NCBI RefSeq assembly: GCF_020623625.1
Contig: NC_060206.1
Coordinates: 1-64,000, forward strand
DNA: 64,000 bases
Reading direction: 5' to 3'
From: Saccharomycodes ludwigii
Lineage: Eukaryota; Ascomycota; Saccharomycetes; Saccharomycodales; Saccharomycodaceae
Part shown: piece after piece, positions 1-62,824 of the stretch
Position numbering within the stretch: the first letter of the stretch is position 1
How the letters are laid out: each line of letters starts with the position of its first letter
Translations under genes and position numbers: made by a program
The notes under the pieces: generated by a model
Seen by the model: only the letters and a program-made list of their open reading frames with translations
What the model was told of the DNA's origin: nothing
Databases searched by the model: none

Positions 1-329
1 CACACCCACACCCACACCCACACCCACACACCCACACCCACACCCACCACACCCACACCCACACCCACACCACACCCACACCCACACACCCACACACCCA
101 CACCCACACCCACACACCACCACACCCACACACCCACACACCCACACCACCCACACCCACACACACCCACACCCCACACCCACACCCACACCCACACACC
201 CACACACACCCACACCCACACCCCACACCCACACACCCACACACCCACACCCACACCCACACCCACACCACACCCACACCCACACCCACACCCACACCCA
301 CACCACACCCACACACCCACACACACCCA

Positions 330-368
<39 letters not shown>

Positions 369-426
369 ACACCCACACACACACACCCACACCCACACCC
401 ACACACCCACACCCACACCCACACAC
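1..426. repeat. Telomeric repeat tract, C-rich strand
   Basis: Uninterrupted irregular repeat of CACCC and CACACCC/CACACACCC steps, so the G-strand would read TGTGGG with variable extra TG. This irregular pattern is of the kind made by budding-yeast telomerases with a degenerate template. It occupies the very start of the window, so the window begins at or in a left chromosome end. The pure repeat stops near 426, where unrelated sequence begins. Confidence 0.97.
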
Positions 427-33757: not shown

Positions 33758-34444
33758 TTTATTCTATTTAAGATTTTTTTGCTTTTATGTTTCGCTGGTG
33801 TTATGATACTTCTTTGGATATTGGATAAAGTCAAGCTTTGTAAATATCAAAAGTATACTTCATTCCAAATAAATGTCAAGATCATTTTTATTTTGCCCCT
33901 TTTTATATTGCTAGTTATTTTTGAATGAATTTATATCACAAATTAATCTATTTTTAGAATTAAAAATTTTTTAACAATTAGTCCGGGTATCAGACTAATG
34001 ATTATTTAAAAGCCGTCGCAATTTTTTATTTTTTATTTTTTATTTTTTATTTTTTATTTTTTATTTTTTATTTTTTATTTTAAAAAATCTCACGAATTGT
34101 TACATTAAACTGATGTTGCAATCAAAGCTAAACATAATCAGTTTAAATAATCCACTGTTACATTTAAAATTAGAAAATAATGATAAATTAAAAGAAAAAA
34201 AAAATTGTATCAAAACTAATTTTGTAAAAAATTACTGTAACAACACTAACAATTACAGATTGACTTTCATGTACTGTGTGCTATCCTCGATGATATACCA
34301 TTCATCCATGTCCAATTTTTGGTCAACCTTTAATATATAAACATTATTAATTTCAGAAAAATGCACATATTTAACTCAATTACATTAAAAAATGAAAAAT
34401 AAAATATGAAAAATTAAAAAAATAAACAAGAAGCACTATAACCT
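33758..34444. promoter_or_regulatory. Divergent promoter region, methyltransferase / deaminase
   Basis: 687 bp between two divergent starts. It contains nine-fold ATTTTTT heptamer repeats at 34020-34079 and, 115 bp before the deaminase start, TTTAATATATAAAC as a possible TATA element. CACAAAT at about 33936 is a minimal NDT80-type core, but one weak match in such DNA is not evidence. Confidence 0.5.
34020..34079. repeat. (ATTTTTT)n heptamer microsatellite
   Basis: Eight to nine head-to-tail ATTTTTT units in the divergent promoter between the methyltransferase and deaminase genes. Such tracts disfavour nucleosomes and vary in copy number. Confidence 0.9.
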
Positions 34445-35203
34445 ATGATTAAAGTTAATGAATTTTTCACAGCAGAATTAGGCTCAGACTATGTTGCTAA
34501 ATTTATTGCCAACAAAATCAACGAATTCCAACCAAATGAAACCAAACCGTTTGTGTTAGGTTTACCGACTGGATCTTCGCCTGAAGGTGTTTACCGGAAG
34601 TTAATTGAGTTGAACAATTTAAAAAAAGTTTCCTTTCAACACGTGGTAACATTCAACATGGATGAATATTGCGGGCTATCCCCAAGCGATGAACAATCGT
34701 ACCATCATTTTATGCATACAAAGTTTTTCGATCATGTTGATATCAAGCCTGAAAACATTCATATTTTAAATGGGTTAAGCAAAAATCGTGCTGAAGAATG
34801 TGCTAACTATGAAAAGATGATTGCTAAATATGGCCCCTTTCAAATTTTTATGGGTGGTATAGGGAAAGAAGGCCACATAGCCTTTAATGAATCTGGCTCC
34901 AGCAGAAACTCTAAAACTCGTGAAATTCAATTGGCTCAATCCACCATTGAAGCCAACTCTCGATTTTTCAACAACGATATATCTAAAGTGCCAAAATCTG
35001 CATTGACTGTGGGTATTTCTACTATTCTAGACAATTCAAAAGAAGTCATTATTTTAGCATTTGGAACATCAAAGGCCGATGTTGTTTCCAAAACCATAAA
35101 TGACAACATAGATTCTAAAACACCAAGCACTTTTTTAAGGGAACATCCAAATGTTACCTTGGTTGTTGACAAATCTTCTGCTTTATTGCTACATAAAAAA
35201 TAA
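34445..35203 (+). CDS. NAG1: Glucosamine-6-phosphate deaminase
   Basis: Converts glucosamine-6-phosphate to fructose-6-phosphate and ammonia in the cytosol, the last step of GlcNAc catabolism. The 252-residue length is normal. Landmarks: GLPTGSSPEGVYRKL (phosphate loop), TFNMDEYCGL with Asp73 (the proton-relay Asp72 of E. coli NagB), and GIGKEGHIAFNE with His144 and Glu149 matching the NagB His143/Glu148 pair. At the place of NagB Asp141 there is Glu142; I believe Candida Nag1 also has Glu there. The SSRNSKTR stretch after it is the usual sugar-phosphate contact region. The stop lies 28 bp from the convergent GH3 gene's stop. Name follows Candida NAG1; identity is secure. Confidence 0.97.
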   Translation: MIKVNEFFTAELGSDYVAKFIANKINEFQPNETKPFVLGLPTGSSPEGVYRKLIELNNLKKVSFQHVVTFNMDEYCGLSPSDEQSYHHFMHTKFFDHVDIKPENIHILNGLSKNRAEECANYEKMIAKYGPFQIFMGGIGKEGHIAFNESGSSRNSKTREIQLAQSTIEANSRFFNNDISKVPKSALTVGISTILDNSKEVIILAFGTSKADVVSKTINDNIDSKTPSTFLREHPNVTLVVDKSSALLLHKK

Positions 35204-35231
35204 ATTTATCAGAATATTTTATATAATATTT

Positions 35232-38216
35232 TTATGTATTTTTTACTTCAGAATAAAAATTATGATATTTACTTAGTGTTTGAAACCCATTATCATGTAA
35301 ACTATTCAATTGTTTCCCCTCAATATCAACAATGTAACATGGATATTCTGTCCCCTGTGTTCTGCTTTTAATATACATTAATGCTGTGCAGATTAATCCG
35401 AGCTTAAATACTTCAGATAATGTATAGTACAATGGATCTATGAAATGGCCAGCAATACATGAATAACCTACATCAGCATCACCTGAATCCAAAAACGGAT
35501 AAAATTTAGCAAATTTGGAATTGTTATTAAAAACAATCAAGCTTCCCACAACAGATCTCTTATTTGGTTCTAGAGCAACAATGATGTTCAAATTACCATC
35601 GGCCAAGTATTCGTTGTCATCGGATAAAAGACTCTGATATATTTCCAAATATAGCTCATAATTTTCTGCCACTGGCGCAGATTTCAATACATGCTTGTTT
35701 TTGTAACATCTAATTATTTCTTCTGGGTTTTTGCAAATGTCAAACATAATACCAACCACTTGTAGTTGGCGAACCAAATTTTCGGATACCTTCCAACTTG
35801 AAACATCATCCAACTTCAACAGGTACCTCATATCTCTATAAATATCCCTCCTTATAACGGAGTTATTTTCATTACCCCTTTTTTTGAACAAATCAAAATC
35901 CCAGGAAAATGATCCAAAAAAGTTCAAGCTGCTTCTATTCTCTTCGGTGGCCTCCAAAAGTAAATCGTTTTTGATATAAAGTTTTGGAAACTCACCGCAT
36001 AAATAAACTTTGAAACAGCTGCACTCGTCAAAAAAGTATTTCATTGTCCTTGTATATAAATGGCTTCCAATGGAAATTCCCCTTTTATTCTTATCAACTA
36101 AAAGCAACAAAATATTCCCAATACACGACTTAATATCTTCGAAGTCAGTACTGATCCATGTGACAGAAATGCCCAATATTGAATTGGAGCTTGTATTCCG
36201 AATAACGAAGCAAGTCAGTGCTTGGTTTTCAGTTTTGAAAAAATTTTCCCAATTTTTTAATGATATATCAGATGCCGAATAATCCACTATATTATTATTT
36301 TTTAGCAAAGTAATCAGCTTATCCCAATCTCTCGAAAAATTAAAAGTTTCCACTAGCCAACTGTTTTTCCCCTTTTTATCGGTATCCTTATTCCTTTGCA
36401 TATCTAAAGTACCAAGCTTACCATTTGACATAGAAATCCCAGGTATTTTGCCAGTTGGTTTTAAATCTCCAAACAAAACATGTGGTAAATTCGACAAGGC
36501 ATTTTTCGTGTAATCGTAAAGGCAAATGTAACCAGTAGGCGTTGTTCCAAAATTAATATCATATAAAAAATCTAATGGCGAAGAAACACTAATTATTATC
36601 ATTTGTGCCGCTTTGTTTCTCGCCCTTGTTTGGTTACAAAGTATAAAGACATGTTTGGCAACACCTACTTGATACAAATTTCTTGTTGTCTCTGCAGACA
36701 CGAATAACACCACCTTCGACTTTAGTATGAGTTCTTCATGGAAAGTTGTTAGACCATTAGAATTGTAACTTTGATGTAAGACTTTGTACCCCTCTTTATA
36801 GGCGGCCAATTGCCTTCCTAGTTCCACGAAAACGTCTTCACCATACCGTAAATCCTTATGCATTCCATTTGAGTTAATATGTGATCTGTTACCGTTCTCG
36901 TCTATCGTTTCGTATAGTGGGGTGATTAATGGGGTTAATAGTAATATGGTATTTTCTGTTTCTAGCCCAGGTTTCAAAAAATTTGTTATTGGAATTCCAT
37001 TATCTCTAACTATAGCAATTGACTTTTCATAGGCTAATTTGGATAAGAGCCTATCTTCTTTTAAAGTTTTAGAACTTAAATCCTTCAAATTTAAAACTTC
37101 GGACCATGAGGGCAATTTTTTCTGCAAGTTTTCTATTTTGGCAACAGAGTCCTCCACTACTTTTTTTTCTAATATATTATCTGCTATCACTGATTTTAAA
37201 GCATTCATTGCTTCTTCTTGGATCTTGAAATTACTACAAAGCATTACCAAATTGCAACCCACAGAAAAGGCAGAGATGCATCCTTGGACAACACCAAATG
37301 TCCTATCTAAAGCTTCCATTAATAAACACTCGCTTACTATAACACCTTCAAAATTCAAAGTTTCTCTCACTAAATTATTTACAATTGTTGGACTTAAACA
37401 TGCATGTATAGCATTTCCATTTATCCTAGGAACAGCACAACCGCCAACCAATACTGAATCCAAAAGATCTTCATCTATGAGATTTTTATACGGGACCAAA
37501 TTAAAATTTAGTAGTTGTTCTGTATTCTCCAATACCATAGGTAATTCTACATTAGAATTAACTGTGGCCGACCCATAGCCGGGAAAGTGTTTGCCACAAT
37601 TAAACATGCCAGTGTCTTTAAAAGCTTTGGCCGCGGCTTTACCAAATTTTGTAACAACGGCTGGATCATAGCCAAAGGATCGGACTCCAATCATTTGTTG
37701 TTGTAAAGGATTTATGTTTTTTAAAACATCCAAAACAGGACCGAGATACATGGAAAACCCAATTGACTTTAATTCTATGGCAAGTTTCTTATAAACTTGA
37801 TAGACTACTTCTTCGGACCCGGTTGAAGCTAATGCCATTGCACCTGGGAATTGTGTAAGATATTTTTTGTCAAATAATGAATTTAACATTCCACCTTCTT
37901 CATCGATGCAAAATATGAGTGGGTATTTGTAACCTGAATTAAAGGCTAGCGTTTGTAAATCCTTTAACAGCTTTTTTGTTTGGGATGCATTGATAAAGTT
38001 TTTCCCGCTCAAGATCATTGAGCTTACTCGATATTTGGTAATTAGTAGTTTAGCTTCATTTGTGACTTCAGTTCCATCAAAACCAGTCAAAAATAGCTTA
38101 CCTACTGTATCTATTATTTCTTGCTCGTTTTTGTACATTCTATTTGTATGTCCGTTATTTTCCGAAGAGCTTAACGTATCAATACTATGGATGATATTGG
38201 GATAAATTTTGGACAT
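35232..38216 (-). CDS. GH3 beta-N-acetylglucosaminidase-type protein fused to GNAT domains
   Basis: A 994-residue fusion. Residues about 25-360 are a family 3 glycoside hydrolase of NagZ type: CIDEEGG (103-109), a GVRSFGYDP stretch, KHFPGYG (209-215) and GVIVSEC (291-297). Residues 400-640 resemble the second GH3 domain. Residues about 665-730 look like a GNAT acetyltransferase with an acetyl-CoA loop RGISIG (712-717), and residues about 870-985 may be a second, degenerate GNAT. Classical NagZ has a DxH dyad as acid/base; here those places are Asn220 and Asn222. The nucleophile place holds Glu296 rather than Asp. Such fungal GH3-GNAT proteins are known in GlcNAc clusters (Trichoderma nag3). 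No signal peptide is seen, so action in the cytosol on imported or recycled sugar is likely. Activity is inferred. It shares a 655-bp divergent promoter with the deacetylase gene. Confidence 0.9.
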   Translation of the reverse strand: MSKIYPNIIHSIDTLSSSENNGHTNRMYKNEQEIIDTVGKLFLTGFDGTEVTNEAKLLITKYRVSSMILSGKNFINASQTKKLLKDLQTLAFNSGYKYPLIFCIDEEGGMLNSLFDKKYLTQFPGAMALASTGSEEVVYQVYKKLAIELKSIGFSMYLGPVLDVLKNINPLQQQMIGVRSFGYDPAVVTKFGKAAAKAFKDTGMFNCGKHFPGYGSATVNSNVELPMVLENTEQLLNFNLVPYKNLIDEDLLDSVLVGGCAVPRINGNAIHACLSPTIVNNLVRETLNFEGVIVSECLLMEALDRTFGVVQGCISAFSVGCNLVMLCSNFKIQEEAMNALKSVIADNILEKKVVEDSVAKIENLQKKLPSWSEVLNLKDLSSKTLKEDRLLSKLAYEKSIAIVRDNGIPITNFLKPGLETENTILLLTPLITPLYETIDENGNRSHINSNGMHKDLRYGEDVFVELGRQLAAYKEGYKVLHQSYNSNGLTTFHEELILKSKVVLFVSAETTRNLYQVGVAKHVFILCNQTRARNKAAQMIIISVSSPLDFLYDINFGTTPTGYICLYDYTKNALSNLPHVLFGDLKPTGKIPGISMSNGKLGTLDMQRNKDTDKKGKNSWLVETFNFSRDWDKLITLLKNNNIVDYSASDISLKNWENFFKTENQALTCFVIRNTSSNSILGISVTWISTDFEDIKSCIGNILLLLVDKNKRGISIGSHLYTRTMKYFFDECSCFKVYLCGEFPKLYIKNDLLLEATEENRSSLNFFGSFSWDFDLFKKRGNENNSVIRRDIYRDMRYLLKLDDVSSWKVSENLVRQLQVVGIMFDICKNPEEIIRCYKNKHVLKSAPVAENYELYLEIYQSLLSDDNEYLADGNLNIIVALEPNKRSVVGSLIVFNNNSKFAKFYPFLDSGDADVGYSCIAGHFIDPLYYTLSEVFKLGLICTALMYIKSRTQGTEYPCYIVDIEGKQLNSLHDNGFQTLSKYHNFYSEVKNT

Positions 38217-38871
38217 TTTTTTTTTCTTCTCTTTTCTTTTTTTCTTTTGATAATTAACTTTATTTTAATTGATATTAGCTAGATATATATTATTTGCTTA
38301 TTTCGGAAAAGTAACGTTGTGCTTTTTAGATGGTGAAAAATTTTAGTTGAAAGTTGTTGTCTGTTTATGTTACATTTTTTTTGATGGTATTATTTAGAGA
38401 TTTATGTGATTTTATTTATATAAAAAAGTTGCAAAAGTTTATTTTTTGTATAAGTTAATTAATAAATTTGTTTCTTTTTTTGATAAGCAAAGCGATTCTT
38501 TTTTAATAGAATGAAAAAAAAAAATCTTATCTAAAAATTATTTTTTGATGTTGCATTCGCCCAATTTTTTTTTTGTTGATAAATTTCTCGCAAAAGATAA
38601 CAAAAAATGTAACAAAACACAATGCAACCCAAAGCTTTTAAAAAGAAGATCTAATTTAATGTTTCCAAAAAAAAAAAAAAAAAATGAAGCAATCCAAATA
38701 ACAAAATTCCATCTCTTCACACTTCCCTTCTTCTAAACATATATAAGCAGCTCTTTTTTTAGAAAGATGAAAAGGAAAAAAAATTTCAATGTATACTATT
38801 ATATACTCCATTCCAATTAATATTCTAATTAAAAAAAAAATAATACCCAATAAAGATCCAATAAAAAAAAA
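38217..38871. promoter_or_regulatory. Divergent promoter region, GH3-GNAT / deacetylase
   Basis: 655 bp between two divergent starts. TATATAAG at 38740-38747 lies 125 bp before the deacetylase start and is a good TATA box; GATATATATTA at about 38281 could serve the leftward gene. Poly-A/T tracts at 38218-38245 and 38669-38684 are likely nucleosome-poor elements. Shared position suggests joint induction of both genes. Confidence 0.55.
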
Positions 38872-40104
38872 ATGACGTACAAAAAGAATATTTTACACTT
38901 TACAAATTGTTTTGTTGCTGATAAAGGTATTTTATCTAATAGAGATTTGTGGGTAGATGTTGAAAATGGTATAATCATTGACAAACCTCAAATTACGGAC
39001 GATTATATTGAAGTTAATCTAGAAGGTAAAATTATCGTAGCTGGCTTTATGGACATCCAAATCAATGGCTGCTTTGGTTTGGATTATTCCACTGTTTTCG
39101 ATTGTGTGTCTGAAAAAGAACAATTTATCCAAGAATATAATAATACTATGCAAAAAATGGTACAATATGGTGTAACTAGTATTTGTCCAACAGTTACTTC
39201 AAGTTTCTCTGATGTATATAAAGATGTTTTACCCATAGTTGGTTCTAAAACCAGATCATCAGAAAGAACTGATTCATTAGGTGCCCATTTAGAAGGCCCT
39301 TTTATTTCCAGGCAAAAAAAGGGGTGCCATCCACCAGAAACCTTGGATACAATGCAAGCAGGGTATAAATCTGTTTTGATGAGGTACGGCAGTAATTTTG
39401 CTGATTATACAGCCATTATAACGGCTGCTCCTGAAGTACAGAATGTTATTCAAACCATGAAAGATGTATTGGACAAACATCCTAACATTGTCTATTCTAT
39501 TGGCCATACAATGAGTGATTTTGATACTGGTGTTCAAGCAATTGAAAGCGGAGGCACCATGATGACACATTTGTTTAATGCAATGCCACCATTTACAGCA
39601 AGAAACCCTGGAGTAATTGGGCTTATTGACTTGCCCAACACTTATAAAAATATAGACACCCCTTATTATGGTTTGGTGGCAGATGGTATCCATGTGCATC
39701 CTAGCGCTATCAAATTGGCTTATAATTTAAATCCTGATAAAGCCATATTAGTTACTGATGCAATGTCATTGATTGGTTTGCCAGATGGTTCGTATATAAG
39801 GGGAACTAGTAAAAACCAAGAACAACAAAAAATTGTGAAAATAGGACATAGGTTATTATTACAAAACACAGAGACAATTGCAGGAAGTGCCACTCATTTA
39901 TTGGATTGTGTAAAAAACCTAATGAAATGGACTGGTGTGCCTTTGGAAAAGGCTTTGGTAACTATAACCAATAACCCATCTAAGTCGTTAAACTTGCAAG
40001 CTTCCAAGGGGTTTTTGGACATTGGTTGCGATGCAGATTTGGTCATTTTGGACTCCAATACGGATATTTCTATGGTTTATAAGCTAGGCCACAAAGTGTT
40101 GTAA
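38872..40104 (+). CDS. DAC1: N-acetylglucosamine-6-phosphate deacetylase
   Basis: Removes acetate from GlcNAc-6-phosphate to give glucosamine-6-phosphate, the step before the deaminase. The 410-residue protein has the NagA layout: GFMDIQINGCFG in place of the usual HxH-bearing strand (Gln is also used in E. coli NagA), HLEGPF with the metal ligand Glu141, SIGHT with His212, HLFNAMPP with His233, DGIHVHP with His274, VTDAM with the catalytic Asp296, and AGSATHL near the end. All catalytic residues are present. The C-terminal DADLVILD strand closes the small beta-domain. Candida calls this gene DAC1 or NAG2. It is convergent with the transporter gene 467 bp downstream. Confidence 0.97.
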   Translation: MTYKKNILHFTNCFVADKGILSNRDLWVDVENGIIIDKPQITDDYIEVNLEGKIIVAGFMDIQINGCFGLDYSTVFDCVSEKEQFIQEYNNTMQKMVQYGVTSICPTVTSSFSDVYKDVLPIVGSKTRSSERTDSLGAHLEGPFISRQKKGCHPPETLDTMQAGYKSVLMRYGSNFADYTAIITAAPEVQNVIQTMKDVLDKHPNIVYSIGHTMSDFDTGVQAIESGGTMMTHLFNAMPPFTARNPGVIGLIDLPNTYKNIDTPYYGLVADGIHVHPSAIKLAYNLNPDKAILVTDAMSLIGLPDGSYIRGTSKNQEQQKIVKIGHRLLLQNTETIAGSATHLLDCVKNLMKWTGVPLEKALVTITNNPSKSLNLQASKGFLDIGCDADLVILDSNTDISMVYKLGHKVL

Positions 40105-40571
40105 ATTTATTTTTAATATGCGTATACTTTTTAGGATATCCACATATACTTGTAATAATAGGAGTTTGTAAGTATTAACTAATATATTCTTTGCCGAGAA
40201 GTGTTGAAAAGAAAGTAGCTAACATCAATAACAAAACGACTATTGAATAAAAGTTTAATTAAAAAAAAAAAAAAAAAAAAAAGGGTGAGTATTCTAAAGT
40301 TTTTAGTAAATCAATTTTTTTTTTTTTGTTTCACGGTATATGTTATTATTTCTGTGCGTTTATAATCTACAAGAAGATAAATTAATAATTTAGTATTAAA
40401 CAACCTTTTAATATTTTCAAGTTTATTTTAGTTTGACTTTAAAAATGTAAAATAATAAAAATATTAAAAAATATATTAAAAAAAAAAAAAAAGAAATTTT
40501 TTTGTCTTGGTGTTATAAATCATATTAAAAATAAATAAATAAAATAAATAAATAATATATATAAACAACTT
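40105..40571. terminator. Convergent 3' region, deacetylase / sugar porter
   Basis: 467 bp between two convergent stops, made of A/T homopolymers (A run 40261-40282, T run 40316-40327, A run 40480-40492) and an (AAAT)n stretch near 40525-40550. It must hold both polyadenylation regions. No gene is seen. Confidence 0.5.
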
Positions 40572-42263
40572 TTATAACTCTGTTAATGAGTTTTCATCTT
40601 TGTCGTTGACAAAAATAGTGGTGTTATTAATTTCTGCATAACAATCATAATTTTTGAATTCTCTAGCTGGTATACCTCTATGATACATGATATCTAATTC
40701 TTCGTATGATCTACCAGAAGTCTCAGGTAATCTGAAAAAGGACCAAACTGTACAAACGAAACAAAAAGCCCCGAAAACAAAGCCTGTTTTACCTCTTAAG
40801 TTACCATTATCAGGATTCAACATATATGGAACTACAACTGTAGCCACAATGAAGAATAAAGCTTGGACTGCTGTAGCAAAAGCAATAGTTTTAGAACGAA
40901 CATTCATAGCACTATTTTCAGAGATAATAGTAAAAGCGGTAGCTCCTGCAGACATTTGATAAATAAAGTTCCAAACCAACATCAAAGAAGCTTGTGCATA
41001 TGCTAAGGACTCATGACTAGTGTAACTTTTTGGACAATCTAAAAATCCAATAACAAACAAGACTGTAGTTAATAGCACCATGCAAACATTGTAGATAAAC
41101 CTTCTACCAAAATAAGACAAGAACACCCATGCAGAACAGGTGGCTGCAAATCCGATAGCAGCAGAGCCCAAAGCCAAATCAAAGGAAACAGATGTTTTAA
41201 TGTCAGTGGCAATGGAAAAAAAATAGGTGGAGTAATTGACAGCAAATGGAACACCACAGAAAACTTGTATACTGTATACTACAGTTGCAACTTCTGTTCT
41301 CCTTAAATTACTACCCTTGAACAAATCCCAGTACGAACTGCTTTTTTCTAATTCGTCTTCCAAGGAAGTAGTATTAACAATAACCATCAATCTGTTTTCA
41401 ACAATTTCCTCGCTAGCCTTTGGACCACATATTTTCCTAACGGATTTTTTGGCAGCATCCATTTTACCCTTACGAACCAACCAGTATGGCGATTCTGGAG
41501 CAAAGGGTAGAATAACTAAGATCAGAACTGGCCAAATAAATTGAATAGCAAAGGGCACCTTGTAGGCCCACTTGCTAGTGTTTGTGGCAAACCCATCAGC
41601 AACACCATTAGCAACAAATTGACCAATAACAAATCCCATATTGGTTAAAGTGGTTAAAACACCACGTAATTTGATTTGAGAAATTTCTGAAGCATAAGTT
41701 GGACCAATCAAAACAACAACACCCCAGAAAAGACCTCCGATAATTTCACCTGCAATTAAAACACCTATATTTGGTGCAAAGAATTGCCAAAATACAAACC
41801 CAATACAACAAATTAAAGTAGCAGCATATGTCCATTTTCTACCAAACCATTCCATGGGATAAGCGCCAAATAGACACCCGATAACTTGCCCTATGGGACT
41901 ACCCATACCTAAAGCTATTTGTACAGATGATTGAACCGGGTACGTGCCATCTGAACCTAAAACACCAAACTTTTTTTGAAAAGCTGGTAAACTATAAAAT
42001 GAAGCAATAATTTGTCCATCATAACCAGCCATAACAACACCTAGGGTAAAAACAGATGACCATAAAATTTCACGAGGATATTTTCTAATAGCTGTTAAAA
42101 CAGAAATCTCTTTTTCTTGTTCAACATATTGCTTTGATTGTGAAAATACATTTTCTATTTCTATTTCGTTATTTTCGAGCACAATACTTTCAGTATCCTT
42201 TCCCACTACTTTTTCTGCAATTTTCAGTGCTGAATCCGAATCCTTACCTACTAGATTTGACAT
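40572..42263 (-). CDS. MFS sugar porter, maltose-permease subfamily
   Basis: A 563-residue, 12-helix plasma-membrane sugar:proton symporter. After a ~65-residue cytosolic tail the helices begin at SSVFTLGVVMAGYDG. Family signatures: EWFGRKW (loop 2-3), PESPYWLVRKGKMDAA (loop 6-7), GRRF (loop 8-9) and PETSGRSYEELD with GIPAREF after helix 12, the last being typical of alpha-glucoside (maltose) permeases. Candida Ngt1, the known GlcNAc importer, belongs to a different-looking MFS branch as far as I recall, so this protein may be an independent GlcNAc importer or carry a chitobiose-like sugar. The substrate is inferred only from its neighbours. Its promoter region is the 1.1-kb spacer to its right. 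Confidence 0.9.
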   Translation of the reverse strand: MSNLVGKDSDSALKIAEKVVGKDTESIVLENNEIEIENVFSQSKQYVEQEKEISVLTAIRKYPREILWSSVFTLGVVMAGYDGQIIASFYSLPAFQKKFGVLGSDGTYPVQSSVQIALGMGSPIGQVIGCLFGAYPMEWFGRKWTYAATLICCIGFVFWQFFAPNIGVLIAGEIIGGLFWGVVVLIGPTYASEISQIKLRGVLTTLTNMGFVIGQFVANGVADGFATNTSKWAYKVPFAIQFIWPVLILVILPFAPESPYWLVRKGKMDAAKKSVRKICGPKASEEIVENRLMVIVNTTSLEDELEKSSSYWDLFKGSNLRRTEVATVVYSIQVFCGVPFAVNYSTYFFSIATDIKTSVSFDLALGSAAIGFAATCSAWVFLSYFGRRFIYNVCMVLLTTVLFVIGFLDCPKSYTSHESLAYAQASLMLVWNFIYQMSAGATAFTIISENSAMNVRSKTIAFATAVQALFFIVATVVVPYMLNPDNGNLRGKTGFVFGAFCFVCTVWSFFRLPETSGRSYEELDIMYHRGIPAREFKNYDCYAEINNTTIFVNDKDENSLTEL

Positions 42264-42692
42264 TATTTTATGTATATTTGAATATTTGAATTGGTTTATT
42301 TTTTTTTTATTTTTCTAAAGGGGGAAAAGAAGATATGGAACGAATTCTAATTTGAAAAATAAAGAATTGAATTAAATGTTTTGGAATAATAATATATATA
42401 TATATATATATATGTTTATGAAAATGATCTGTTTATTAATTTTTTTTCTTTTTTTTATAATTTTGAACATAGTCCTTATGCTTTACTGACTTACAGTTTC
42501 GAGTGCAGATCAATATCTCATATTACTATTCATTTTTTTTTTTTGTTGGTTGAAGGTATAAGTGAAAATAAAAAGTTTGATGCATTTAAGATGGGTCATA
42601 AACATGAACAAGATAAAGCGTTTACAAATGAAAAAAAAAGAGAGAAAATTGTAACCGTTAATTATATGCAACATAGTTATCTTAACTAACCT

Positions 42693-42726
<34 letters not shown>

Positions 42727-43362
42727 GATGCTGTTACTTTACAAAAATGAGCACAATTTCCTTTAAAAGTAACATCAGTTTATTTATCTATCTAATTTTT
42801 TATTTTTTTTTTTCTGATCAAAACCTTATATTGTTTCTTTATTTTTACTCGGAATAATTAAATCATTATACAGCATAGTATATTAATGATCTTCAAATGA
42901 TTATTGCAAGTCTTTTATCCTCCTTATCGCAAGAAAAAAGATAAAAAAGATTTTTTTTTTTTTTTTGTTTCTAAAAAGTTGAGAAGAAACAAAGACTATG
43001 TACTAGATAGAAAGGAACCTAAAGATAAGAAAGTTGTTGTAACATTACACCACCAAAGTTAAATGTGCTTTAATCGTGATCTCATTTTTTTTTTTTTTAA
43101 ATTAGTACATAGATTGGATTATTTTATTTTTTCCTATACAGCATTAAATTTGACATCTCCGCCATTTAAAAGGCTGTAGCATCGCCCATTTAACAAAACG
43201 TAAAGCGATTTCCACATTTTTTTTTTTTTTTTTTTTATTTTAGTAAAAAAATTACTCAAATGACTACTTCTACTAATAAGTTAGTCATTTCTTAACATGC
43301 AAGATTTTGTAAAAAAATAACAAATTATTCCATTTATAAGCCTTTATATGTTTATATATAAT
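42264..43362. other. Spacer upstream of the sugar porter
   Basis: 1.1 kb without a gene: promoter of the leftward porter gene and 3' flank of the HGSNAT-like gene. Contains (TA)n tracts at 42391-42412 and 42695-42723 and several T-runs. Nothing else is recognised. Confidence 0.6.
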
Positions 43363-44385
43363 TTAAAAAAATCTAATCTTTAAGCGATATTTGTTACAAA
43401 AAACAGCAAACAAGACTAGAGTCATATTAAAACTACTAGTTAAAAAAAATTGAACCCACCAATCTGGTAGATAATTACCCAACTTTTGATAACAATAACC
43501 CCAAATAGATTTCTTATTTTGCTTGTACTTTAATAATAACAACAAAATCTCACCCATAAAATAAACCTCCATGTTTTGTCTCCCAACAATGGATAGTAAA
43601 CTTTGAACATATTTAGGTAAAAAGGATATGCCCATTTTCAAAAAAGAATATTTTAAAATACTCCAACCGGTGGATATCATAGTGAATGATGGAGTCCATA
43701 ACGGTTTAGACACCGGGAAATAATTTGGTGACAAAAAGGCTAAAAGTTTTCCACCAGCCAACAGGGAAGACCCAACCATCAAACTTTGGTTTACGTCAAG
43801 TTTCATTCTAGCATACCAAATACCACTCCATAAAGTGACAGAGGTCATTAGCGAACCCAGTAATCCTTCTGGATCAAAATTCTTGTGATAGGTTCTATCT
43901 TTAAAAATTGGATAATCAATTTTTTGCTGGGCACTTGCTATTTGGCTTTTGAAAGGTTGTTTTTTATTATCAGCGTACAAAATTGAAACGCCTAACCAGG
44001 TACCAGTAATTAAAATAGGATATTGACTGAATCCGATTTTGTTCAATAATTGGTTCAATATGATAGAACTTAAACCATGTCTTTGCAAAACACCTAAAAA
44101 CCTTAACTTTTCATTATATAAAATACTTGGGATATAATTAAAAGCAATACCTAAACCAATCAATTGCAAATTTTTGTAAATAGGAACTGGCTTGCATTCC
44201 GGGTTTAGAGTCATACCATTTATAAATGAAAAGCATGGGAAAATTGTGTCAGCATAATTCAGTTTCATTTCATCATATTTAGCATGATCAAAAAATGGAT
44301 TATCACAGCTCTCAATTGTTTCCATTTCCAAGACATTTAATCCCCTGAAAGCATCAACAAAGGGGTCTCTACTTAAAACAGACAT
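43363..44385 (-). CDS. HGSNAT/YeiB-like membrane acetyltransferase
   Basis: A 340-residue multi-span membrane protein that resembles heparan-alpha-glucosaminide N-acetyltransferase (HGSNAT, DUF1624/DUF5009 group). Landmarks: DAFRGL near the N-terminus (residues 11-16), a His34-containing stretch followed by YADTIFPCFSFINGM (44-58), LRFLGVLQRHGL in the middle, and LWTPSFTMISTGW toward the C-terminus. HGSNAT carries acetyl from cytosolic acetyl-CoA across a membrane via its active histidine to the amino group of a terminal glucosamine; His34 is the best candidate for that residue. About seven to eight hydrophobic segments are visible. In a GlcNAc cluster this suggests N-acetylation of glucosamine in the vacuole or another compartment. 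Function is inferred from family and context. It is divergent from the kinase gene. Confidence 0.78.
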   Translation of the reverse strand: MSVLSRDPFVDAFRGLNVLEMETIESCDNPFFDHAKYDEMKLNYADTIFPCFSFINGMTLNPECKPVPIYKNLQLIGLGIAFNYIPSILYNEKLRFLGVLQRHGLSSIILNQLLNKIGFSQYPILITGTWLGVSILYADNKKQPFKSQIASAQQKIDYPIFKDRTYHKNFDPEGLLGSLMTSVTLWSGIWYARMKLDVNQSLMVGSSLLAGGKLLAFLSPNYFPVSKPLWTPSFTMISTGWSILKYSFLKMGISFLPKYVQSLLSIVGRQNMEVYFMGEILLLLLKYKQNKKSIWGYCYQKLGNYLPDWWVQFFLTSSFNMTLVLFAVFCNKYRLKIRFF

Positions 44386-45357
44386 AGTTTGTATTTGGAA
44401 TCTTTTTTTTTTTTTTTTTTTTTTTTCTTTTTTTTTTTGGAGTGTTTTTTTTACTGATTATTAAATATTTACCTAGTTAACTTTCATGACTTTGTTTATA
44501 TATTAGTTTTTTTGTTCTTTTTTCTTTTGGTATTCTTTTGAAATAAGTTTATAAAGAAAAAGCACAAAAAATCATGTTGAATAAGACTATTTGGGTCCTT
44601 GATATCATTTATCTTATCAAATTCAAAATAAAATTATCTTTTTTCTTTTTTATATAATACTTTTCTAAAATAATAGTTTAAATATTTTAATGTTACTGCA
44701 ACAATAAAAAAAAAAAAAAAGAAGCAAGACGTAAATAATATTCGAACTTTTGCATTATTTTATTTATAAAATTTTTTTTTTTTTTTTTTTTTTAAAATTA
44801 TCTCGATAAAAACCGAATTTTTTTTATTTAAAAAGCAAAAAAAATATACAGGATAGCAACACCGATATTTTATAATTCAATCCAACTTACTTCAGACTAT
44901 TAAATTAACACCTCAGTGATTTATGTAATCTTTTTTTCTTTTCTTCTTTCTTATTCTCTCTTTGCATTTCATCAATACATGAAAAACCAACGATTCCTTT
45001 AACAATATCACTTTAGCTTTTTTTTTCCTTTTTATCTACTCCTCGATATAGTGATATAAGTATACTAGAATTTATTATATTTGCTAAAAGGGAAAAGCCA
45101 GATTTGGAATATCTTTTATTTTTTTTTTTTTTATCTACATTCGTAAGCCAAGCCATTAAATCACAAGTATGCAAACGACCATATATATAATTCTAAGAAA
45201 AAGAATCATAAATGAACAAAATTTCCAAGATTTTTGTAAACTAAAAAATACTTATCATTCAACAAAAATATATACCAATACATACAAACAGCTTTAAAAT
45301 TTTTATTAAGTGAATATAGGAAAAAAGAAAAAGAATAATTTCATACGTATATCTTCC
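44386..45357. promoter_or_regulatory. Divergent promoter region, HGSNAT-like / kinase
   Basis: 972 bp between divergent starts. It has many poly-T runs (44404-44438, 44772-44792, 45119-45132) and ATATATATAATTC at 45180, about 175 bp before the kinase start. GCACAAAAA at 44562 fits the NDT80 middle-sporulation core NCRCAAAW, but a single copy is weak evidence. Confidence 0.5.
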
Positions 45358-46905
45358 ATGGAAACGTATAAATTTTTAGTTAATAATATACTTGAAGGAC
45401 ACAGTGGTTTGCAGGAGGACCGAAAAACAAAACTAATAGTTTTTTCCAATCCTGTTATTGACGTAAGAGAAGAAGAAGAAGAAGAAGAAGAAGAAGAAAA
45501 AGGATGTAATAATGTCCAATTAATTGCAAAATACAAAAAACATATCACCAGTGTAAATAATTATCGATTCAATGAATATTTTCATATAGCTGAGTTACAG
45601 CAGAACTTTGATGAAATTGTTTTAGAATTTAAGGAAGACATGTTTGATGCTATTTATAAATCATATAATTCCATGAGACCTTTTTTCAATGTAGTCCCTA
45701 ATCAAGAAGTTAATGGTACTTGTTTTGTTATTGACATTGGGGGTTCCACATTAAGAATTTCCATGGTGGAACTTTCTTTTAATTATCAAATCAATTGTAT
45801 TTTGTCAGAGTCCTGGTGCATTGCTGACGATAATAAAGTTATCGATAAGGATTGGTTAAAATGGATAATTTCAAAGTTTAAAGGGTTTTTGCAAACTCTA
45901 AAGATTAAACACAAAGTTGATCTTTCTAATAATAATGGAAAATTCAAAGTTGGTATTACGTGGAGTTTCCCCATGGTTCAAAAGGATGCTTCTAACAGAG
46001 GGGAAATATCTGACTTGGGTAAAGGCTTTGAAGTTTGTCAGGAATATTTTGGTGGTGATTTAAAAGATATTTTTGAGAATAATTTCAGAGAGGAAGGATT
46101 GGATATTGATGTTGGATCCATTGTAAATGATTCCATTGCTGTTTTTGTTACTGGTGCCTATTTAGTAAAGTCTAAATTGGCTTTGGTTTTAGGAACTGGT
46201 TTGAATAGTTGCTTTGCAATTAACAATTCTCTTTTTGGTCAACACAAAAGGCTACCATTATCGGTTAATAGTCCTAGCGATAAGGTTTTGGTTAATGCTG
46301 AATCATCTTTTTTCGGTTACAATTTACAAAAATATGTTACTGATATTGATAAGCAAATGTGCGCGTTTTGGAATTTAAACTACGAACAATACTTACCCCC
46401 ACATTTGACTACTGATCAGTATGGTGTTTTCCAACCTTTAGAGCTATTGACTGCTGGACGTTATATTCCGGAAATTATAAGATTAACGATTGCTAAAGTA
46501 TTTGCCGAATGCTCATTTGTGATACCTTCTTTATTTACAAAGGGAAAATATTGCTGCGATGCCGAATTTTTCGCTAAGTTGTATATCGACGTCAACCAAG
46601 TGTCTGGCTTGAAACCCGACAAATATGAACTTGTTAAGGATATTATTGATGTGGTTATTAAACGAGCCCCCCTTATCTTAGCTATGTATATCATTGCATT
46701 GCTGCAACTAGCAGAGGCAACAACATCAGCACGTGAAACAGTGTACATATCTGTTGTTGGGTCTATGCTAAAATACTTTCCTGGGTATAAAGGTAAAGTT
46801 GAAGGATATCTTAATTTTTATTGTAAAAGATTAAATCTACCAAAAGTTGAATTTATATTTCTAGAAAATAGTAGTATATACGGAGCTTCCATATCATGTT
46901 TTTGA
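45358..46905 (+). CDS. NAG5: Hexokinase-family N-acetylglucosamine kinase
   Basis: A 515-residue hexokinase-fold kinase; in the cluster it most likely phosphorylates GlcNAc at C6. Signatures: CFVIDIGGSTLRISMVEL (phosphate 1), ITWSFPM (sugar-binding loop, where hexokinases read SFPC), IVNDSIAVF with the catalytic Asp258, LVLGTGLNSCF and VNAESSFFG. The divergence of the sugar loop from glucose hexokinases and the neighbourhood point to the Candida Hxk1/Nag5 type. The frame is open upstream to 45310 only through a non-ATG codon, so the first ATG at 45358 (METYKF) is taken as start. A (GAA)n tract at about 45469-45500 encodes a run of Glu in the N-terminal part, a place of length variation. Followed on the same strand by the regulator gene. 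Confidence 0.92.
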   Translation: METYKFLVNNILEGHSGLQEDRKTKLIVFSNPVIDVREEEEEEEEEEKGCNNVQLIAKYKKHITSVNNYRFNEYFHIAELQQNFDEIVLEFKEDMFDAIYKSYNSMRPFFNVVPNQEVNGTCFVIDIGGSTLRISMVELSFNYQINCILSESWCIADDNKVIDKDWLKWIISKFKGFLQTLKIKHKVDLSNNNGKFKVGITWSFPMVQKDASNRGEISDLGKGFEVCQEYFGGDLKDIFENNFREEGLDIDVGSIVNDSIAVFVTGAYLVKSKLALVLGTGLNSCFAINNSLFGQHKRLPLSVNSPSDKVLVNAESSFFGYNLQKYVTDIDKQMCAFWNLNYEQYLPPHLTTDQYGVFQPLELLTAGRYIPEIIRLTIAKVFAECSFVIPSLFTKGKYCCDAEFFAKLYIDVNQVSGLKPDKYELVKDIIDVVIKRAPLILAMYIIALLQLAEATTSARETVYISVVGSMLKYFPGYKGKVEGYLNFYCKRLNLPKVEFIFLENSSIYGASISCF

Positions 46906-47625
46906 TTAATGAGAATGTAATTTTCTGTTATATTGGCTCTTTTTTCCTTTTTTAAATTATAATTCTTAATAGGATATCCGAAGCGATGGTTTGAAAAAGG
47001 AAAAAAAAAAAAAAAAAAAGCCGGGAAAATGTGCAATTTTCTCAATTTTTTTTTACCAAGAGAAAAATGCTCGGTATTTTTTTTATTTGATGTTAAAAAA
47101 GAAACACAACAAAATTGCCGAGGTTACAGTTTTATCCTCTCTGCGACTTTTTCTGTGTAGACTTGCCTTGAATGGAAATAAGAAAATAAATAAACAAATA
47201 AAGATAAGATCTGATTGTTTTTGACTCGAGCTTGTACTTTTTTTTTTTTTTTACCTTTTTTTAATTAAAAACTAATAAATAAATCACCATGCCGGTGGGA
47301 AAAAAAGCTCTTTATTATCTTTGTACTTCTACTCACTTTTAAAAGTCTCCAGTACCTCGATTAACCTCAACCATGAACAAATTTACAATAAATGACACCT
47401 CGCAATAAGTTATCAGGAAAAGATAATTAAAATATATATATGTAGCTATAATTATTACAGAAAAAAAAAAAAAAAAAAAAAATTTAAAGGCACTTATATG
47501 CACAAGAATAAAAACTTAAATTCTTCAGTATATTACAGTTCACAATTACAGAGGTAGAAATATATATATATATACTGAGTACAACTTTATAAATATACTC
47601 ACTAAATATTTTAGTCTTTTCCAAT
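46906..47625. promoter_or_regulatory. Promoter region of the NDT80-like gene
   Basis: 720 bp between the kinase stop and the regulator start. It contains A/T runs (46999-47019, 47240-47252, 47460-47482) and ATATATATATATAC at about 47561, 60 bp before the start codon. No gene is seen. Confidence 0.5.
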
Positions 47626-49326
47626 ATGATAAATTATGACACAATTGATGATGAATTTGCATCTTTATTCTTAAAAGAATTGCAGAAAACAACCAATGGG
47701 ATCACATTTACAAATGGTAACAACAACAACAACAACAGCAATAATAATAATAACAACAACAATGTAGATCTTATAAATGCTCAATTCTTTCAAAGTTTGA
47801 ACGAAAAAAATTCCGAGACTTTTTCTGAACCCATTGTCGGTACTACTAACAATGATAACAATAAAAAAAGAACTTATGATGAATTTGAGACAAATTCAAC
47901 GGCTTCGCAACTTGTTTCTCAAACATCACATGTTACTACCGCACACGCCACATATGATATATATTTACCACCAGAAACGACTTTGTCATCCACATTCTTT
48001 GGTATGAATGACAATTACGTAAGCAGTAATTATGACACCGATATTAAAAATACCATCACTAATAATCGTCAAGGTACTTTTGTAAAATCAGAAAGCGCAA
48101 CAAATACAGCGGATGAACCAGCCATTGCCACATACAAAGATAGAAAAGACATGGATGAACCCGATAATTTAAATGGTGCTCTTTTAAAATTTCAAATTCT
48201 TGATGAGAAAAACATTCCATTTTTACTCACTGGAGATTGTTCAGGTGTTTTCAATGTTGATTGTAGTTTAGATGGAAGATTTTATATAGAAAAACACACC
48301 CTGTCGCTTTTACTGGGTAAACCACAAGTAGATGAGAACCCGTCATCAGACAATAGCTGTGGTACTGTTACTGATAATGACCAAATTACTTTGTTTTGTT
48401 ATCGTAGAAATTTCATTTCCATTAAACTTGAATTTAGTTTCCCCTTTGACAGCACTGGTATTCAAAGTTTATATTTAAAGAAAACAAAAAATGAAGAAAA
48501 TGCCATCGAAATATCAAAACTAAGATTCAAAGTTTATTGCAGCTTAAGGAAATCAACTTCTGACGATGATGATTCTTTCAAAGTCATTGTACCAATGGAG
48601 CAGTTTGTTATGCCAAAAAATAACGAAGTCTTGAAAAAAAATAAAGATGGCAACTTTGTATTAAAATGCTCAGAATATGAAATTCCAATTACAAAACTTG
48701 GTGATTATTACAACGCAAATACTGATTGTTTTATTGTCGAATGGGATCAAATCAAATTTAAGTCTGCCACTGCTAATAATAGACACGATGCTAAGGATAA
48801 ATTTTATGTTGTAACTACCTCAATCGAGTTTTTGGATAAGTTTAATGAACCAGTTTATAATACAAAACTTGAATCACTACCGGTCATGGTTAGAGGTAGA
48901 AATCCAAGTTTTTACTCCGACAAGGGTGATATATTTCTTGGAAAACTAAAATCTAACCATTTAGTTTCATTTAAAGCTGAAAATTCAAATGATTTAAAAA
49001 ATGACCATGTTGTTAAAAAAAGTAGGAAAAAATCGCCTTCAAAAAATCAAATATCTGAGGAAACAAGTAACGCTTCTAGTCCTTCCTCTGCGCCAGTATC
49101 CAATACTAATTTAGCTTCAATGAACAATTCCCAAGAGTCGCTGGTTGTGGATGGATTAAACTACCACTATTTTAAAATGGATAACAATTATTACCTACCG
49201 CCAATAGAAGTGGGATATTTCCCACATTACGTTCATCATAATAAACAAGTATTCAAGCTACAAGCGCCTCCATCTAATAGACAAAATGAAGAGGATTCTT
49301 CTACTCATTATAATTACTTTATGTGA
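47626..49326 (+). CDS. RON1: NDT80/PhoG-family transcription factor, RON1-like
   Basis: A 566-residue DNA-binding regulator. The N-terminal 185 residues are disordered, with an Asn-rich run (32-46). Residues about 186-445 match the NDT80/PhoG fold: LLTGDCSGVFNVDC at the start, RRNFISIKLEFSF in the middle, and LPVMVRGRNPSFYSDK near the end, where Ndt80 proteins carry the VRGRSP loop that reads the DNA. A basic SRKKSPSK patch follows, then a Ser/Asn linker. In Trichoderma and Aspergillus an NDT80-family factor encoded in the GlcNAc cluster (RON1/XprG-like) switches the pathway on; the neighbourhood here suggests the same. It is not the meiotic NDT80 itself as far as can be judged, but paralogy is not resolved by eye. 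Confidence 0.85.
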   Translation: MINYDTIDDEFASLFLKELQKTTNGITFTNGNNNNNNSNNNNNNNNVDLINAQFFQSLNEKNSETFSEPIVGTTNNDNNKKRTYDEFETNSTASQLVSQTSHVTTAHATYDIYLPPETTLSSTFFGMNDNYVSSNYDTDIKNTITNNRQGTFVKSESATNTADEPAIATYKDRKDMDEPDNLNGALLKFQILDEKNIPFLLTGDCSGVFNVDCSLDGRFYIEKHTLSLLLGKPQVDENPSSDNSCGTVTDNDQITLFCYRRNFISIKLEFSFPFDSTGIQSLYLKKTKNEENAIEISKLRFKVYCSLRKSTSDDDDSFKVIVPMEQFVMPKNNEVLKKNKDGNFVLKCSEYEIPITKLGDYYNANTDCFIVEWDQIKFKSATANNRHDAKDKFYVVTTSIEFLDKFNEPVYNTKLESLPVMVRGRNPSFYSDKGDIFLGKLKSNHLVSFKAENSNDLKNDHVVKKSRKKSPSKNQISEETSNASSPSSAPVSNTNLASMNNSQESLVVDGLNYHYFKMDNNYYLPPIEVGYFPHYVHHNKQVFKLQAPPSNRQNEEDSSTHYNYFM

Positions 49327-60205: not shown

Positions 60206-61139
<934 letters not shown>

Positions 61140-62441: not shown

Positions 62442-62824
62442 TTTGTACTTTTTTATTTTTATTTCTTTATCAAAGAGGTGGTTTTTTACTATCTATTAAA
62501 TAATATTTTAGTGTATATATATATATATATATACTAACAATCAAAAAAAGTCTATGTAAAAGAAACTCAAGTAAATCGATAAAGGAAATAAAGTTGTTGT
62601 TAATTACATAAAGTTAGAAAAGATTAGACTAGCACATAATTTTAAAAAAAAAAAAATAAATAAATTCCATGCTCACGTTAAACAATAATAATAATAAAAA
62701 GGGAAAATAATTTCGCTATGTTGGAATTATACTTCTATGCAATGTCCGAGTTAATGCTTTCGGACAAATAATACCAACACAGAAATATATCCAATAAATA
62801 AATAAATAAAAGTAATAAGTTCAA
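62442..62824. other. Spacer between RPD3 and PEX6
   Basis: 383 bp with (TA)n at 62513-62534 close to the RPD3 start, A-runs at 62643-62656 and an (AATA)n stretch at 62683-62700. It serves as RPD3 promoter and PEX6 3' end. No gene is seen. Confidence 0.6.

Follow-up and report, generated by a model that had tools for sequence, protein, structure and literature searches.

How does a yeast of an order neighbouring Saccharomyces come to hold a set of genes for the use of N-acetylglucosamine (GlcNAc), a capacity described as lost in the Saccharomyces lineage (PMC4950302, PMC2880306)? The question is raised by seven side-by-side genes at positions 34445–49326 of a 64,000-nucleotide stretch of Saccharomycodes ludwigii DNA, which is the start of contig C7 and is referred to here as the window. 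Gene content and diagnostic residues support the original prediction that these genes are likely to form a cluster for the use of GlcNAc that includes a regulator. We consider it probable that the locus is a self-contained cluster for GlcNAc sensing and catabolism, in which three genes share a history with Pichia against the species relationships, and that it moved as a block between yeast classes.

The cluster opens with a glucosamine-6-phosphate deaminase gene of the NAG1/dam1 type (34445..35203, forward strand; 252 aa), whose product scored 322 bits against TIGR00502 nagB (cut-off 236.9). It is followed by the gene for a GH3-GNAT protein that resembles the GlcNAc sensors of the Ngs1/Nag3 type (35232..38216, reverse strand; 994 aa), as judged by a Pfam GH3 N-terminal domain, key residues, and a fold match to structure 4zm6. 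The third gene (38872..40104, forward; 410 aa) encodes an N-acetylglucosamine-6-phosphate deacetylase (DAC1/NAG2) with an Amidohydro_1 domain, a TIGR00221 score of 219.7 bits, just below the cut-off of 225.65, and homologues that carry this name. A sugar porter of the SP family of the major facilitator superfamily (40572..42263, reverse; 563 aa), a candidate GlcNAc or amino-sugar transporter, matched PF00083 with 269 bits and TIGR00879 with 305 bits, above its cut-off. Next come a candidate NagX/HGSNAT-like transmembrane acetyltransferase (43363..44385, reverse; 340 aa), recognized by the residues D11xxR14 and His34, a 46-bit match to NagX_SO_3504, and an HGSNAT fold; a hexokinase-family kinase that matched PF00349 and PF03727 above the Pfam cut-offs (45358..46905, forward; 515 aa), which is a candidate GlcNAc kinase of the HXK1/NAG5/hxk3 type; and an NDT80-family regulator (47626..49326, forward; 566 aa), a Rep1/RON1-type candidate that matched PF05224 (NDT80_PhoG) above the Pfam cut-off.

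All seven open reading frames (ORFs) are intact at these coordinates, and the sole further ATG-started ORF of at least 120 aa between 34445 and 49326 is antisense, within the deacetylase gene. The seven genes stand side by side as predicted, uninterrupted and without unrelated genes among them. The predicted families were also supported, while two of the names had to be changed: the GH3-GNAT protein is now described as an Ngs1-type sensor, and the "HGSNAT-like" protein as NagX-like. Kinase, deacetylase, and deaminase are adjacent in the cluster (the kinase being assigned by family only), and the presence of a GH3-GNAT gene and an NDT80-family regulator within it corresponds to the filamentous layout.

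A Pfam search of the GH3-GNAT protein returned the GH3 N-terminal domain and no GNAT match. The best fold match of its AlphaFold2 (AF2) model (predicted local distance difference test score, pLDDT, 84.3) was the GH3-GNAT structure 4zm6, with both regions covered (974 columns; TM-score by query, TMq, 0.49; root-mean-square deviation 22.9); the domains do not superpose as a single body. The GlcNAc-binding Lys-His pair corresponds to K209-H210 and is kept in 55/55 aligned rows, the window protein included. The putative acetyl-CoA contacts V707 and G717 are likewise kept in all 55 rows; they were equated with C. albicans V686 and G696 by their ten-residue spacing, not by aligning C. albicans Ngs1. 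At the position of the hydrolase nucleophile Asp, the window protein has E296, and Glu is found in every one of the 55 rows. The D-S-H of the NagZ dyad reads N220-S-N222 in the window protein; across the alignment, the dyad His is missing in 55/55 rows and the dyad Asp is retained in 35/55. Similar residue changes are described for Candida Ngs1, which is reported to be a GlcNAc sensor without hydrolase activity and to be brought to promoters by the NDT80-family protein Rep1 (PMC5063960). In Trichoderma NGS1, a proposed non-hydrolase sensor, the nucleophile has become Glu and the dyad G-S-N (PMC12176254). From its residues, the S. ludwigii protein looks like an Ngs1-type GlcNAc sensor whose hydrolase residues have been lost.

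It is improbable that the protein is instead a working beta-hexosaminidase, as the annotation of S. ludwigii strain UTAD17 calls the GH3 gene (PMC7903802), or, as with Rhizomucor RmNag, a glucosamine N-acetyltransferase. The GH3 domain is present, and RmNag, whose structure 4zm6 was the best fold match, has a hydrolase region together with a glucosamine acetyltransferase region (PMC4680927). However, the D-to-E nucleophile and the change of the dyad from D-S-H to N-S-N come close to the changes of Trichoderma NGS1 (E and G-S-N). A role as hexosaminidase was rejected because nucleophile and dyad are lost; this loss speaks to hydrolysis only, and acetylation of glucosamine by the GH3-GNAT protein is still compatible with it. 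As a side observation, a yeast-type GH3-GNAT protein (P0181) turned up under the label of a Staphylococcus equorum metagenome-assembled genome, probably through fungal contamination. A search for stray yeast DNA in prokaryote and viral contigs, with the GH3-GNAT of Pichia inconspicua as query, confirmed 0 of 36 and 0 of 2 pattern matches.

The NagX-like protein of the window had no Pfam match of its own; HGSNAT_cat was matched by 30/53 rows of its alignment at E ≤ 0.01. In a fold search with its AF2 model (pLDDT 94.7), all 15 PDB chains retrieved at E ≤ 0.001 were human HGSNAT (TMq 0.71–0.75), with 17–20% identity in the matches; a PDB sequence search with the protein gave 0 matches. Its sole NCBIfam match was bacterial NagX (NagX_SO_3504), with 46.3 bits against an equivalog cut-off of 480. 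Because this score is far below the NagX cut-off and a Pfam match is lacking, we name the protein NagX-like, not NagX. The catalytic-type His34 was found in 32/33 yeast-type rows, the other having a gap, and in all 20 remaining rows, to which the protein is 21–27% identical (two of them are plant proteins). The His and the DxxR motif are kept in all 53 rows, save one gap per position and one R-to-K change.

Bacterial NagX (309–395 aa) has been proposed, from fitness data in five bacteria, to convert periplasmic glucosamine to GlcNAc with cytosolic acetyl-CoA, and it often lies in chitin-use operons (PMC9007349). The S. ludwigii protein resembles it in its length of about 340 aa, its HGSNAT catalytic fold, and its His (PMC9007349); unlike bacterial NagX, it is eukaryotic and falls below the equivalog cut-off. 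By analogy, it may N-acetylate glucosamine at the plasma or vacuolar membrane. That it instead transports GlcNAc, is an acyltransferase for another sugar reaction, or is encoded by a mere passenger gene is unlikely, if well worth weighing. Its similarity to characterised proteins is distant (46 bits to NagX; 17–20% to HGSNAT), a transporter role has been weighed for bacterial NagX as well (PMC9007349), and several long contigs with a NagX-like gene pair with no deacetylase or GH3-GNAT contig. On the other hand, the catalytic-type His and DxxR are conserved across the 53 rows, and, in addition to the window, the NagX-like gene lies, as judged by equal contig size, together with a deacetylase or GH3-GNAT gene in 4 of 21 relatives compared, Saccharomycopsis crataegensis among them.

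A genome search found no close second copies of the GH3-GNAT, transporter, and NagX-like genes; the transporter had 12 other genome matches, which are 24–32% identical. A second copy of the kinase gene was found at 2297989–2299521 of contig C2, 49 kb from an end of that contig, and encodes a protein that is 92% identical. Over 1,349 bp the two copies are 99% identical in DNA, and their first ~70 residues and their flanks differ. This near-identical core with a diverged N-terminus and unrelated flanks suggests gene conversion between subtelomeric kinase paralogues. Near the C2 copy, an ORF at 2302243–2303868 has, by eye only, the look of an ATO acetate/ammonium transporter.

The NDT80-family protein of the cluster scored 55.7–59.7 bits against PF05224, compared with 175 bits for a canonical Ndt80 encoded on contig C3. 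In a PDB sequence search, the canonical protein matched PDB Ndt80 with 231 bits and the cluster protein had no match. Given that a separate canonical Ndt80 exists on C3, the cluster protein is a candidate Rep1/RON1. The 7-mer TGTTGCA occurs in five of six promoters, a set that includes the promoter of the C2 kinase copy, and is absent from the NDT80 gene's own. In the window, these candidate sites lie in the deaminase promoter (34114..34120, forward strand), in the divergent promoter of the GH3-GNAT and deacetylase genes (38549..38555, forward), upstream of the transporter (42667..42673, reverse), and in the divergent promoter of the NagX-like and kinase genes (44697..44703, reverse); as copies of a shared 7-mer, all four are weak evidence. 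In 4/300 shuffles, some 7-mer containing three or more G or C reached five promoters, and since the count of TGTTGCA in the whole window (16, with 11.2 expected) is ordinary, we keep the motif as a lead only. The meiotic middle sporulation element (MSE), the core of which we take to be CRCAAAW, was rejected as the regulator's site, with 4 occurrences in 5,034 bases of cluster promoters (0.79/kb) versus 8 in 9,370 bases of control intergenic DNA (0.85/kb).

Homologue searches and trees covered three of the seven genes, those for the deacetylase, the GH3-GNAT protein, and the NagX-like protein. The best 120 rows were listed per search (for the NagX-like protein, 120 of 307 matches), and among the matches listed the closest labelled relatives of all three belong to the genus Pichia and to S. 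crataegensis. The deacetylase is 56–61% identical to labelled Pichia and Saccharomycopsis proteins and 44–47% to those of Kuraishia, C. boidinii, and Brettanomyces. For the GH3-GNAT protein, identity is 56% to P. inconspicua and 39% to Kuraishia; for the NagX-like protein, it is 54–55% to P. californica and S. crataegensis and 47% to Kuraishia. In the NCBI taxonomy, S. ludwigii belongs to the Saccharomycetes (Saccharomycodales), while Pichia, Kuraishia, and Brettanomyces are Pichiomycetes of the family Pichiaceae, and Scheffersomyces (Serinales) is also a member of the Pichiomycetes; C. boidinii belongs to the Pichiales.

The trees placed S. ludwigii with Pichia. In the deacetylase tree (49 of the 120 listed matches), it formed a clade with 18 Pichia-type rows (19/49 rows; support 100/100), with Kuraishia, C. 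boidinii, and Brettanomyces elsewhere; the 18 rows comprise two labelled Pichia, two S. crataegensis copies, and 14 without a species label. The GH3-GNAT tree (49 of 120; the partial P. californica P0155 and the short P0201 were among the rows left out) united it with Pichia-type rows in a clade of 16/49 rows (100/100), which was regained under a mixture model in a smaller tree of 22 rows. In the NagX-like tree (33 of 120), Kuraishia fell outside a clade of S. ludwigii and P. californica (100/97). Smaller trees were also built for the deacetylase from 23 labelled rows, which are not all of the labelled matches, and for the NagX-like protein from 25 rows, without P0020, P0021, P0024, and P0029–P0033, several of which are long-branched. 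In these phylogenies, all three genes join Pichia, and none points to a different donor of its own.

Keeping the Pichiales together was rejected for each gene in the approximately unbiased (AU) test, with log likelihoods (lnL) worse by 114 for the deacetylase (p 5e-49), by 218 for the GH3-GNAT protein (p 2e-6), and by 32 for the NagX-like protein (p 0.003; broader form, p 0.03). As the groups were taken from taxonomy but after the identity gap was known, these p values are somewhat flattering. The distance between S. ludwigii and Pichia is 1.58 changes per site for the deacetylase and 1.20 for the GH3-GNAT protein; other Pichiales–Serinales distances have a mean of 2.37 and a minimum of 1.86 for the deacetylase, and a mean of 2.26 and a minimum of 2.00 for the GH3-GNAT protein. 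For these two genes, the S. ludwigii–Pichia distances are thus smaller than the older class split allows, which favours transfer over ancient duplication. Horizontal transfer involving the S. ludwigii and Pichia lineages is well supported, on the evidence of the sequences, as the best reading of the three genes' history.

The direction of transfer was considered from the placement of S. ludwigii within these clades. It lies outside all 18 Pichia-type deacetylases (98/90) and outside a 12-row Pichia-type GH3-GNAT clade (100/100). As the resolved trees leave S. ludwigii out of the Pichia-type group, it need not be the recipient, and its position in these two trees speaks against plain receipt from the sampled Pichia. 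In the GH3-GNAT tree it grouped weakly (88/77) with P0122, P0123, and P0124, which are 58–61% identical to the window protein. The whole S. ludwigii/Pichia-type clade is sister to Kuraishia plus Serinales in that tree, and the deacetylase clade stands beside Serinales (98/90 in the 49-row tree; 84/85 in the 23-row tree). S. crataegensis is nested in Pichia-type rows in the deacetylase and NagX-like trees. The AU test does not reject a single clade of S. ludwigii and S. crataegensis deacetylases (p 0.23) or of the two Pichia deacetylases (p 0.24).

Linkage in relatives was read from contigs of equal size, for which 21, 25, and 29 of the 120 rows per search were compared. Deacetylase, GH3-GNAT, and NagX-like genes occur together on contig jgi245019 and on contig lgn57641, and GH3-GNAT and NagX-like genes are common to one 16,993-base contig. 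In P. inconspicua, GH3-GNAT and deacetylase genes lie on one contig with consecutive tags (CANINC_000081 and CANINC_000080). In S. crataegensis, the NagX-like gene DASC09_025070 lies, by tag number, between the deacetylase genes DASC09_025030 and DASC09_025130 on one contig; these two deacetylases (P0243 and P0244) are nearly identical, which suggests that one end of the cluster was duplicated recently. In Kuraishia, the contigs that bear the three genes all differ in size. Outside the clade, P0137 and P0267 share a contig, and the two C. anglica genes are on one chromosome with tags far apart.

The original prediction had left retention of an ancestral cluster and gain by transfer side by side. 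Transfer is now favoured; it would have involved the Pichia lineage and, as its partner, a third party or the lineage of S. ludwigii, though the trees do not make S. ludwigii the recipient. One account, in which S. ludwigii gained the cluster from an unsampled Pichia-like yeast or from Pichia's own third-party source and it landed in the subtelomere, comes near to an even chance in our estimate. The pathway is reportedly absent from the other Saccharomycodaceae compared (PMC7903802), and five of six pathway genes are absent from 14 Saccharomycetaceae (PMC4950302). Pichia, Kuraishia, and S. crataegensis were the only labelled yeasts with the NagX-like gene among the best 120 of 307 matches, and the site is subtelomeric. 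However, S. ludwigii is not nested among the sampled Pichia-type rows where the trees resolve, and the GC content at third codon positions (GC3) and CTG use of the cluster match those of its neighbours. It is also quite possible that the cluster is vertical in S. ludwigii and was lost in Saccharomycetaceae and Hanseniaspora, with Pichia receiving it from a relative of the S. ludwigii lineage and S. crataegensis perhaps from Pichia. The outer position of S. ludwigii relative to the 18 deacetylases and the 12-row GH3-GNAT clade would fit this history, as would S. crataegensis inside the Pichia-type rows and the sister relation of the GH3-GNAT clade to Kuraishia plus Serinales, which is the expected place for Saccharomycetes. 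Yet in the deacetylase tree the clade stands next to Serinales instead, the AU result for S. ludwigii with S. crataegensis leaves the nesting uncertain, and no labelled protein of Phaffomycetales, Saccharomycetales, or Hanseniaspora is among the 120 matches listed per search, a weak point as most rows have no species label.

A history without transfer, in which one of two ancient paralogous clusters was kept by S. ludwigii and Pichia and the other by the remaining yeasts, is very improbable. The GH3-GNAT topology alone would permit two ancient clusters, and Pachysolen has two deacetylases; both of these, however, lie outside the clade, no labelled species in the deacetylase or GH3-GNAT tree has copies on both sides, and many parallel losses would be required. 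The distances of 1.58 and 1.20 are also below the minima of 1.86 and 2.00 despite the older class-level split. For repeated transfer in yeasts, the GAL genes are said to be a known precedent, reportedly described by Haase in 2021.

While the Pichia history of the three genes is observed, the move of the whole cluster as one block between yeast classes is what we infer, and several points weigh against this reading and the roles attached to it. The trees cover three of the seven genes, most rows of the key clades have no species label, which bears on the taxonomic range of the clade, and the NagX-like trees leave the position of S. ludwigii within its clade poorly supported. The stem of the 16-row GH3-GNAT clade carried a long-branch warning, which was not repeated in the 22-row mixture-model tree. 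No partner contig was found for the NagX-like rows P0014 (398,177 bases) and P0013 (84,975) or the GH3-GNAT rows P0126 (67,969), P0122 (50,112), and P0123 (42,454). With such long contigs lacking a partner, linkage is seen for a minority of rows; a split cluster and a listing that names another member's contig look the same in this comparison. Base composition is not foreign, with GC3 and CTG use like those of the neighbours, as an old or AT-matched transfer would lead one to expect. Finally, the match to NagX is far under its equivalog cut-off, and the promoters of the cluster show no enrichment of the NDT80 MSE core.

The locus is a known kind of cluster, here confirmed, with an unusual NagX-like member and a cross-class history for three genes. 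In Trichoderma reesei, a kinase, deacetylase, deaminase, GH3-GNAT protein, NDT80-family regulator, and transporter are likewise found together (hxk3, dac1, dam1, nag3/NGS1, ron1, and ngt1), and no NagX-like gene is among these six (Kappel et al., PMC4950302, as far as the available text goes). The predicted closeness to filamentous-fungal clusters therefore stands for gene content, with a GH3-GNAT gene and an NDT80-type regulator as in Trichoderma (PMC4950302), but not for sequence: in the trees, the three genes covered fall with those of budding yeasts (Pichia), and the transporter is likened to NGT1 by family only. The Candida albicans Nag regulon (HXK1, NAG1, and DAC1) has the same catabolic enzyme families, and the available text mentions no NagX-like gene in it (PMC2880306, PMC5063960). 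The C. albicans Ngs1 residues K175/H176, V686, and G696 have counterparts in the S. ludwigii protein (PMC5063960), but NGS1 lies outside the C. albicans Nag cluster (PMC4950302), whereas the S. ludwigii sensor gene lies inside. Pichia (P. inconspicua, P. kudriavzevii, and P. californica), with S. crataegensis, provides the nearest labelled relatives of the three genes and yet belongs to another yeast class.

In S. ludwigii UTAD17, SCLUD7.g6 (deaminase), g7 (hexosaminidase), g8 (deacetylase), and g11 (kinase) evidently represent the same locus, as the order matches (PMC7903802); SCLUD7.g9 and g10 would be the transporter and the NagX-like gene. The 2021 genome paper describes as species-specific a set of six GlcNAc enzymes, of which four are encoded at the cluster locus, lists the GH3 gene as a hexosaminidase, and places the permease elsewhere, at SCLUD1.g377 (PMC7903802). 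In its main text, as far as available, SCLUD7.g9, g10, and g12 are unnamed, and none of the terms NDT80, horizontal, lateral, or subtelomer was found. A literature search, judged by titles and abstract openings in a partial collection, found no description of this transfer or of a yeast NagX.

The chromosomal setting agrees with what had been predicted. Telomeric CACACCCA-type repeats occupy positions 1..426 at the contig start, marking a chromosome end, so the cluster begins 34 kb from the telomere. On the right flank lie SPT20, PEX11, PSF3, CTR9 (Pfam: TPR repeats only), an ORF without a Pfam match that we take to be NOP8 by position, and RIB4; these genes match the predicted SPT20-to-RIB4 block, whose order and orientation are those of S. 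cerevisiae YOL148C to YOL143C. Contamination is unlikely, as the cluster adjoins SPT20 on a contig that represents a chromosome, and UTAD17 numbers its genes in the same run. Beyond RIB4, at 60206–63958, a histone deacetylase (RPD3-like) is followed by an AAA ATPase ORF (PEX6-like); this joins genes whose S. cerevisiae counterparts are divided between chromosomes XV and XIV, which a gene order from before the duplication would lead one to expect. Just inside the telomeric tract, 47-bp and 94-bp tandem repeats (460–925) give way to AT-rich repeats up to ~5 kb. A class-III aminotransferase gene, with the highest GC3 (0.367) among the 19 genes measured, lies beside the gene for a 497-aa protein without a Pfam match (7480–8892 and 9370–10863). 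The reverse strand at 16778–25561 encodes a 2,927-aa protein that by eye resembles flocculins and contains dozens of 45-residue repeats, nearly identical to one another; repeats ~71% identical to these were found near the C2 kinase copy.

From the observed genes, residues, predicted folds, and adjacency, we infer the following biochemistry and regulation. The sugar porter would import GlcNAc, which the GH3-GNAT protein would bind in its dead hydrolase pocket. The NDT80-family protein would tether the GH3-GNAT protein to promoters, where chromatin would be acetylated and the cluster switched on. Kinase, deacetylase, and deaminase would then break GlcNAc down, with fructose-6-phosphate, acetate, and ammonium as products. 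The NagX-like protein may N-acetylate glucosamine across a membrane with cytosolic acetyl-CoA, and we propose that glucosamine would thereby become both fuel and inducer. In its fullest form, the model holds that a complete module of three enzymes, a transporter, a NagX-type acetylator, and the sensor with its regulator crossed between classes as a block (at least once between the Saccharomycodes and Pichia lineages, and again into Saccharomycopsis), with the NagX-like protein turning extracytoplasmic glucosamine into GlcNAc as food and inducer; this version is tentative.

GlcNAc use probably persists or has returned in an order neighbouring Saccharomyces, with sensor and regulator linked to the pathway. 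If the model is true, a pathway thought lost toward S. cerevisiae was regained or re-seeded as a pre-wired unit, and the NagX-like route would give eukaryotes a counterpart to the one through bacterial NagX. The locus would offer a testable case of a nutrient-sensing circuit that moved along with its pathway, as well as a candidate for a fungal enzyme able to acetylate glucosamine on the other side of a membrane.

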